Shown: positions 1 to 187 of the stretch, in pieces | Position numbering within the stretch: the first letter of the stretch is position 1 | Layout: each line of letters starts with the position of its first letter | Source of the DNA: Bacteroidota bacterium | GTDB lineage: Bacteria; Bacteroidota; Ignavibacteria; Kryptoniales; JAKASW01 | Length of the DNA: 35,169 nucleotides | Reading direction: 5' to 3' | Assembly: GCA_021794075.1 (NCBI GenBank) | Contig: JAJYRM010000039.1 | Location: 1-35,169, forward strand | The notes under the pieces: generated by a model | The model's input: only the letters and a program-made list of their open reading frames with translations | The model's database searches: none | Told to the model about the DNA's origin: nothing | Made by a program: the position numbers and the translations under genes

Positions 1-127
1 GGATGGGACTCGTCTCGCTCCTCGACACAATGCTCAAAATCCGGAATCTTTCACGAACCGCCGTATACGGAACCGTACGTACCGTGGTGTGAGAGGACGG
101 CGGGAGTAATCCCGCCTCCTACTCGAT
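1..127 (+). mobile_element. Group II intron, 3' end only (domains V and VI)
   Basis: Two adjacent RNA hairpins match the catalytic end of a bacterial group II intron. Domain V is at 57-88. Its lower stem pairs 57-65 with 80-88, a CGC triad lies at 59-61 with the characteristic G-U wobble (60/85), a 2-nt bulge is at 78-79, and the four-base cap is GAAC. Domain VI is at 91-124. Its stem is closed by a GTAA (GNRA) loop and it has a bulged branch-point A at 121, seven bases from the intron end counting that A, which is the usual spacing. The intron ends in AT at 127 and the 3' exon begins at 128. The intron body and its reverse transcriptase/maturase lie left of the window. One pair in the lower stem (62/83) is C-C rather than C-G, so activity is uncertain. 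Confidence 0.85.
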
Positions 128-187
128 AAGTGAGCTTTCGTAGAATTTGGCGCACGAATCGGCTAAATTTTTTCCGGAGGTTTGAAG

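Follow-up and report, generated by a model that had tools for sequence, protein, structure and literature searches.

The window analysed here, a stretch of 35,169 nucleotides from contig C53 of the Bacteroidota-type genome bin G000, begins with 127 bases in which a sequence-only reading had recognised a group II intron tail standing directly before a methylmalonyl-CoA epimerase gene. The same reading had pointed out a C-C mismatch at positions 62 and 83 in the domain V stem and had offered a decaying copy or a sequencing error as its cause. The locus raises the question whether these bases are the end of a genuine mobile intron and, if so, what the mismatch in its catalytic core signifies. Covariance searches, comparison of copies and flanks, and folding were used to answer it. 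With high confidence, window positions 1-127 (+ strand) are assigned as the 3′ terminus of a mobile class C (IIC) group II intron with at least five insertions in this genome, each directly behind a transcription terminator and here placed between ssb and the epimerase gene.

Domains, boundaries and copies of the intron end

A covariance search of the first 700 bases returned a match to RF00029 at 56-127 over the full model length (1-77 of 77), with 38.3 bits (E-value 6e-6) and thus slightly below the gathering threshold of 40 bits. The Rfam search of the whole window at the gathering threshold reported no match, because the mismatch alone lowers the RF00029 score: the copy on contig C192, which carries G at position 83 and is otherwise identical to the window tail, reached 47.6 bits, so that this one-base difference costs 9.3 bits. 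Such an intron is easily missed, since the mismatch puts the score of the standard model below its cut-off.

The covariance alignment reproduced base by base the domain V that had been proposed from the letters. It extends over 57-88 (+ strand), with the pairs A57-U88 and C58-G87, the triad CGC at 59-61 paired with GUG at 84-86, the C62xC83 mismatch, and the pairs G63-C82, U64-A81 and A65-U80; the 2-nt bulge lies at 77-78 or 78-79 depending on the register, and beyond it follows a capped upper stem. Domain VI (91-124, + strand), read directly from the sequence and situated within the RF00029 match, shows the pairs G91-C124, A92-U123 and G93-C122, then the bulged branch-point A121, then a stem up to the GUAA loop at 106-109, likewise as described earlier. 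Domains V and VI, a bulged branch A and a 3′ end of the form AY, all features of group II introns, are hence present in the window. The 3′ splice site at 126-128 (+ strand; intron ...CTCGAT / exon AAGTGAG) was located by the point of divergence of the five copies and by the empty site in relatives, and it places the intron end at 127, where it had first been set. The metabolic gene noted about 60 bases away proved to be an epimerase gene (188-595, + strand; TIGR03081, 150 bits), which starts 60 bases past the intron end as a 3′ neighbour outside the intron.

Five copies of the 127 bases were found in the 240 contigs of G000, namely on C53 (the window), C170, C192, C175 and C70, all at contig ends, and in four of these contigs the distance between contig edge and intron end is exactly 127 bases. 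The start of the window inside the intron is probably an assembler k-mer overlap (de Bruijn k=127) at the mouth of a repeat; a contig from another assembly of the same species bears a SPAdes-style NODE name. A reverse transcriptase of this type was not found in the 240 contigs, and the intron body is absent from the bin. With the intron start of a relative as query, four intron 5′ ends were located in G000 (C84, C227, C109 and C158) and a fifth on contig C101 of bin G009. The 5′ ends therefore equal the 3′ ends in number, five each, with only C84 and C53 paired by gene order, and the leftward extension suggested for the window copy leads to its 5′ part on C84. The contrary outcomes named beforehand, a lack of upstream intron parts or reverse transcriptase and a lack of a covariance match, were checked and did not come about.

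With no more than 127 bases in the window and a score under the gathering threshold, the tail might be thought to resemble an intron by chance, or to be a stray domain V/VI piece with no intron attached. Chance is ruled out, since five copies of these bases, exact or with one mismatch, stand at five different sites of one genome; together with the matching 5′ ends, the site found empty in relatives and a full-length copy that encodes a reverse transcriptase, these copies make either version of this explanation extremely improbable.

Contig C101 (JAJZVO010000078.1; locus L085, 1-17659) is filed under SKS5.bin54, and about 7.4 kb of it, in two blocks, are 100% identical to the genome of the window (5.6 kb of C86 and 1.8 kb of C87). 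It looks, on sequence identity, like a misbinned and separately assembled contig of the window's species. A transfer of the tail with T77 and C83 to another species (bin G009) was considered and rejected in view of this identity, the corresponding value for G012 being 82%. A weak reverse-transcriptase match on contig C30 of G000 was also rejected as an intron; by eye it resembles an arsenate-reductase-type frame behind a small regulator.

Class C assignment and insertion behind terminators

The intron is a class C (IIC) retro-intron of the ordinary bacterial type. The published boundary consensus of class C is GUNYGCCNRGCAUGG ... CCUACYCGAU (PMC4028801); the 3′ end CCTACTCGAT agrees with CCUACYCGAU, and the 5′ boundary GTGTGCCCGGCAGGG fits the consensus save for one mismatch, G for U (PMC4028801). 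The group II 5′ end GUGYG is present as GTGTGCCCGGC on C84, C227, C109 and C158 and as GTGCG in C101. For domains I-IV, RF02001 gave 32.9 bits (gathering threshold 32) in a relative from G002; the corresponding body of the window copy is missing from the assembly. Nearly the same domain V sequence is found in class C introns on plasmids and viral contigs (NZ_CP029118.1, NC_020548.1 and 30 IMG/VR contigs), an E. coli plasmid copy showing 94.7% identity over window positions 52-127.

On C84, the order is ssb, then the terminator GGGTCGTCCAGATAAAGGACGACCCTTTTTTTTGT, then the start of the intron. The relatives G009 and G012 have ssb, the terminator and the epimerase gene in direct succession, with no intron among them, and the joined flanks from G000 align to this empty site; the same gene order was found in G008, G010, G001 and G007. 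The order on C84 and the intron-free stretch in the relatives show that the window copy went in behind the ssb terminator and ahead of the epimerase gene; the host gene is left uninterrupted. According to folding, each of the five intron 5′ flanks in this species closes with a strong hairpin and its T run, the terminators belonging to ssb, tRNA-Leu, 5S rRNA, a secreted-protein gene and one other gene, and eight further 5′ ends in the genus also lie behind hairpins. The putative IBS1 reads TTTGT, and a candidate EBS1, GCAAA, is present in the full copy. Terminators are known insertion targets of class C introns (PMC4424553), and the intron resembles the group IIC elements found after terminators, such as B.h.I1 and GsI-IIC (PMC4424553), both in its end and in its target sites.

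Two further intron forms were observed among the genomes. Copies of the present intron at the loci L040 (2199-3256, G002:C6), L089 (881-1304, G009:C13) and L090 (964-1337, G009:C120) have one 845-base deletion in common, bounded by GGCATAA repeats (intron positions 256 and 1101), through which they lack the first half of their reverse transcriptase. This form, present at three sites in two bins, is perhaps a derivative that moved in trans. Locus L034 (5372-6106, G000:C2:43371-44105) is a second, unrelated group II intron (RF02005 55.5 bits, RF00029 47.0 bits); no group II reverse transcriptase was found in the genome bin, and it is apparently ORF-less.

The reverse transcriptase and its frame through domain V

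The reverse transcriptase/maturase to be sought upstream was found in a full-length copy from the same species: the complete intron on C101 comprises 1915 nt and encodes an intact protein of 478 aa, read in this copy because the body of the window copy is missing from the assembly. The protein contains RVT_1 and GIIM as its only domains, without an endonuclease, and matches TIGR04416 with 411 bits; its best solved relative is the GsI-IIC RT (6ar1, E 5e-141), the closest known structure to this reverse transcriptase with its maturase domain. The window itself holds the C-terminal 29 codons (MGLVSLLDTMLKIRNLSRTAVYGTVRTVV) and the stop codon TGA (90-92) of this gene at 3-92 (+ strand), and the 478-aa ORF of C101 has an identical protein end.

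The frame passes through domain V, which is spanned by the last 12 codons of the reverse-transcriptase gene. In relatives outside the genus, the stop codon stands 1 to 9 bases ahead of GAACC, at the door of domain V, in 20 of 20 cases with a readable frame. The extra 12 codons arise because the usual stop TGA of the relatives, as in TCATGAACC, is CGA in this genus (TCACGAACC). At window positions 51-92, the maturase stop before domain V has accordingly been lost in this genus, a loss absent from the 20 readable relatives outside it. The extension of the protein by 12 codons into domain V distinguishes the intron from those of the B.h.I1/GsI-IIC type, and in the plasmid and viral class C introns the reverse transcriptase, where readable, ends directly before domain V. 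No paper describing a maturase gene that overlaps domain V turned up in a literature search, which is weak evidence because it covered open papers only.

The C62xC83 mismatch and the possible mobility of the mismatched intron

The second feature that sets the intron apart from the B.h.I1/GsI-IIC type is the C-C mismatch that four of the five copies have beside the domain V triad. Base 83 (+ strand) is C on C53, C170, C175 and C70 and G on C192; C175 and C70 additionally have T at 77 (A77T). An unbroken domain V helix beside the triad, a trait of the relatives rather than a strict family criterion, is thus absent in four copies and present in C192. G83 occurs in every other copy examined (the 30 viral-collection contigs, the two plasmids and the genus relatives), and a search of 395 genomes added one further case from the phylum, also with G83. 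When 84,980 species genomes were scanned, a set from which the window's own genome records may be left out, the C83 form of domain V came back from C101 only. From the comparison of copies, C83 is derived and G ancestral, and the change affects a silent third codon position (ACC vs ACG, Thr).

As the copies all lie at contig ends, four of them cut 127 bases from the intron end in the manner of assembler overlaps, a sequencing or assembly error at the contig end could be imagined. Position 83, however, is 44 bases from unique flank, so that each contig ties base 83 directly to its own site. C83 stands on four contigs with four different flanks and in two haplotypes, each with two flanks, and the haplotype with T77 also ends JAJZVO010000078.1, a contig from the separate assembly of the species, with overlaps of 5.6 kb and 1.8 kb at 100% to G000 contigs. 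Because four of the five copies, at different sites, and a second assembly carry C83, the proposal of a sequencing error is rejected as very unlikely, and the mismatch is real.

The other explanation offered at the outset, a decaying copy, fares differently in its two forms. Decay of a single copy does not fit a change common to different sites, while decay of a whole lineage may still apply. Such a lineage would be dying, the mismatch having spread by gene conversion or the copies having moved just before activity was lost, with none of the four now splicing well or moving. The predicted folding energy of domain V is -11.1 kcal/mol with C83 and -17.3 kcal/mol with G83, a loss of stability of about 6 kcal/mol which, with the drop of 9.3 bits in covariance score, speaks for this explanation, and the copies with both C83 and T77 (L004 and L005) gave no RF00029 match at all. 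By analogy with RmInt1, a C-C mismatch in this place may well put an end to mobility, and C83 could have spread by gene conversion between copies without mobility.

RmInt1, to our knowledge not a class C intron, offers a comparison. In Sinorhizobium meliloti 1021 it likewise exists as near-identical copies with single-base differences, including domain V and mostly protein-silent, and some of its copies have been inactivated by a change of one base, in one case within domain V (PMC4496777). The natural domain V point change C1832U in RmInt1 kept splicing and was shown to abolish mobility (PMC4496777), whereas the change described here occurs at several sites.

Against a dying lineage stand the intact reverse transcriptase in the full copy with both changes, the near identity of the copies where readable, and the nesting of the haplotypes. 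C83 and T77 both fall on third codon positions and are silent in the reverse-transcriptase gene, unlike the prediction of unconstrained decay, two silent changes being too few to prove selection. On balance the dying lineage is a serious possibility that falls somewhat short of an even chance.

The nested order from G83 to C83 to C83 with T77 over different sites is explained most simply if the mismatched intron went on moving, the succession of mutations and insertions being drawn from two positions only. On this most economical history, the intron with the mismatch would have kept at least a weak mobility. As in known IIC introns, the intron RNA would splice out with the help of its maturase, reverse-splice into DNA behind terminator hairpins and then be copied back. 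The G-to-C change in domain V originated in this species, and four of the five sites are today taken by C83 copies, some with the further A77T. We tentatively propose, as a reading that is plausible yet not the expected outcome, a natural IIC lineage that has kept its mobility despite the C-C mismatch next to the catalytic triad, perhaps because its maturase holds it together, while the maturase gene itself continues across domain V and the same 32 bases serve both the protein and the ribozyme core.

In the main, the analysis records an element of a known kind from a Bacteroidota-type lineage that has been little studied, where a protein gene shares its bases with a ribozyme core. Should the C83 intron have kept its activity, it would provide a natural test of how much damage to domain V can be tolerated.
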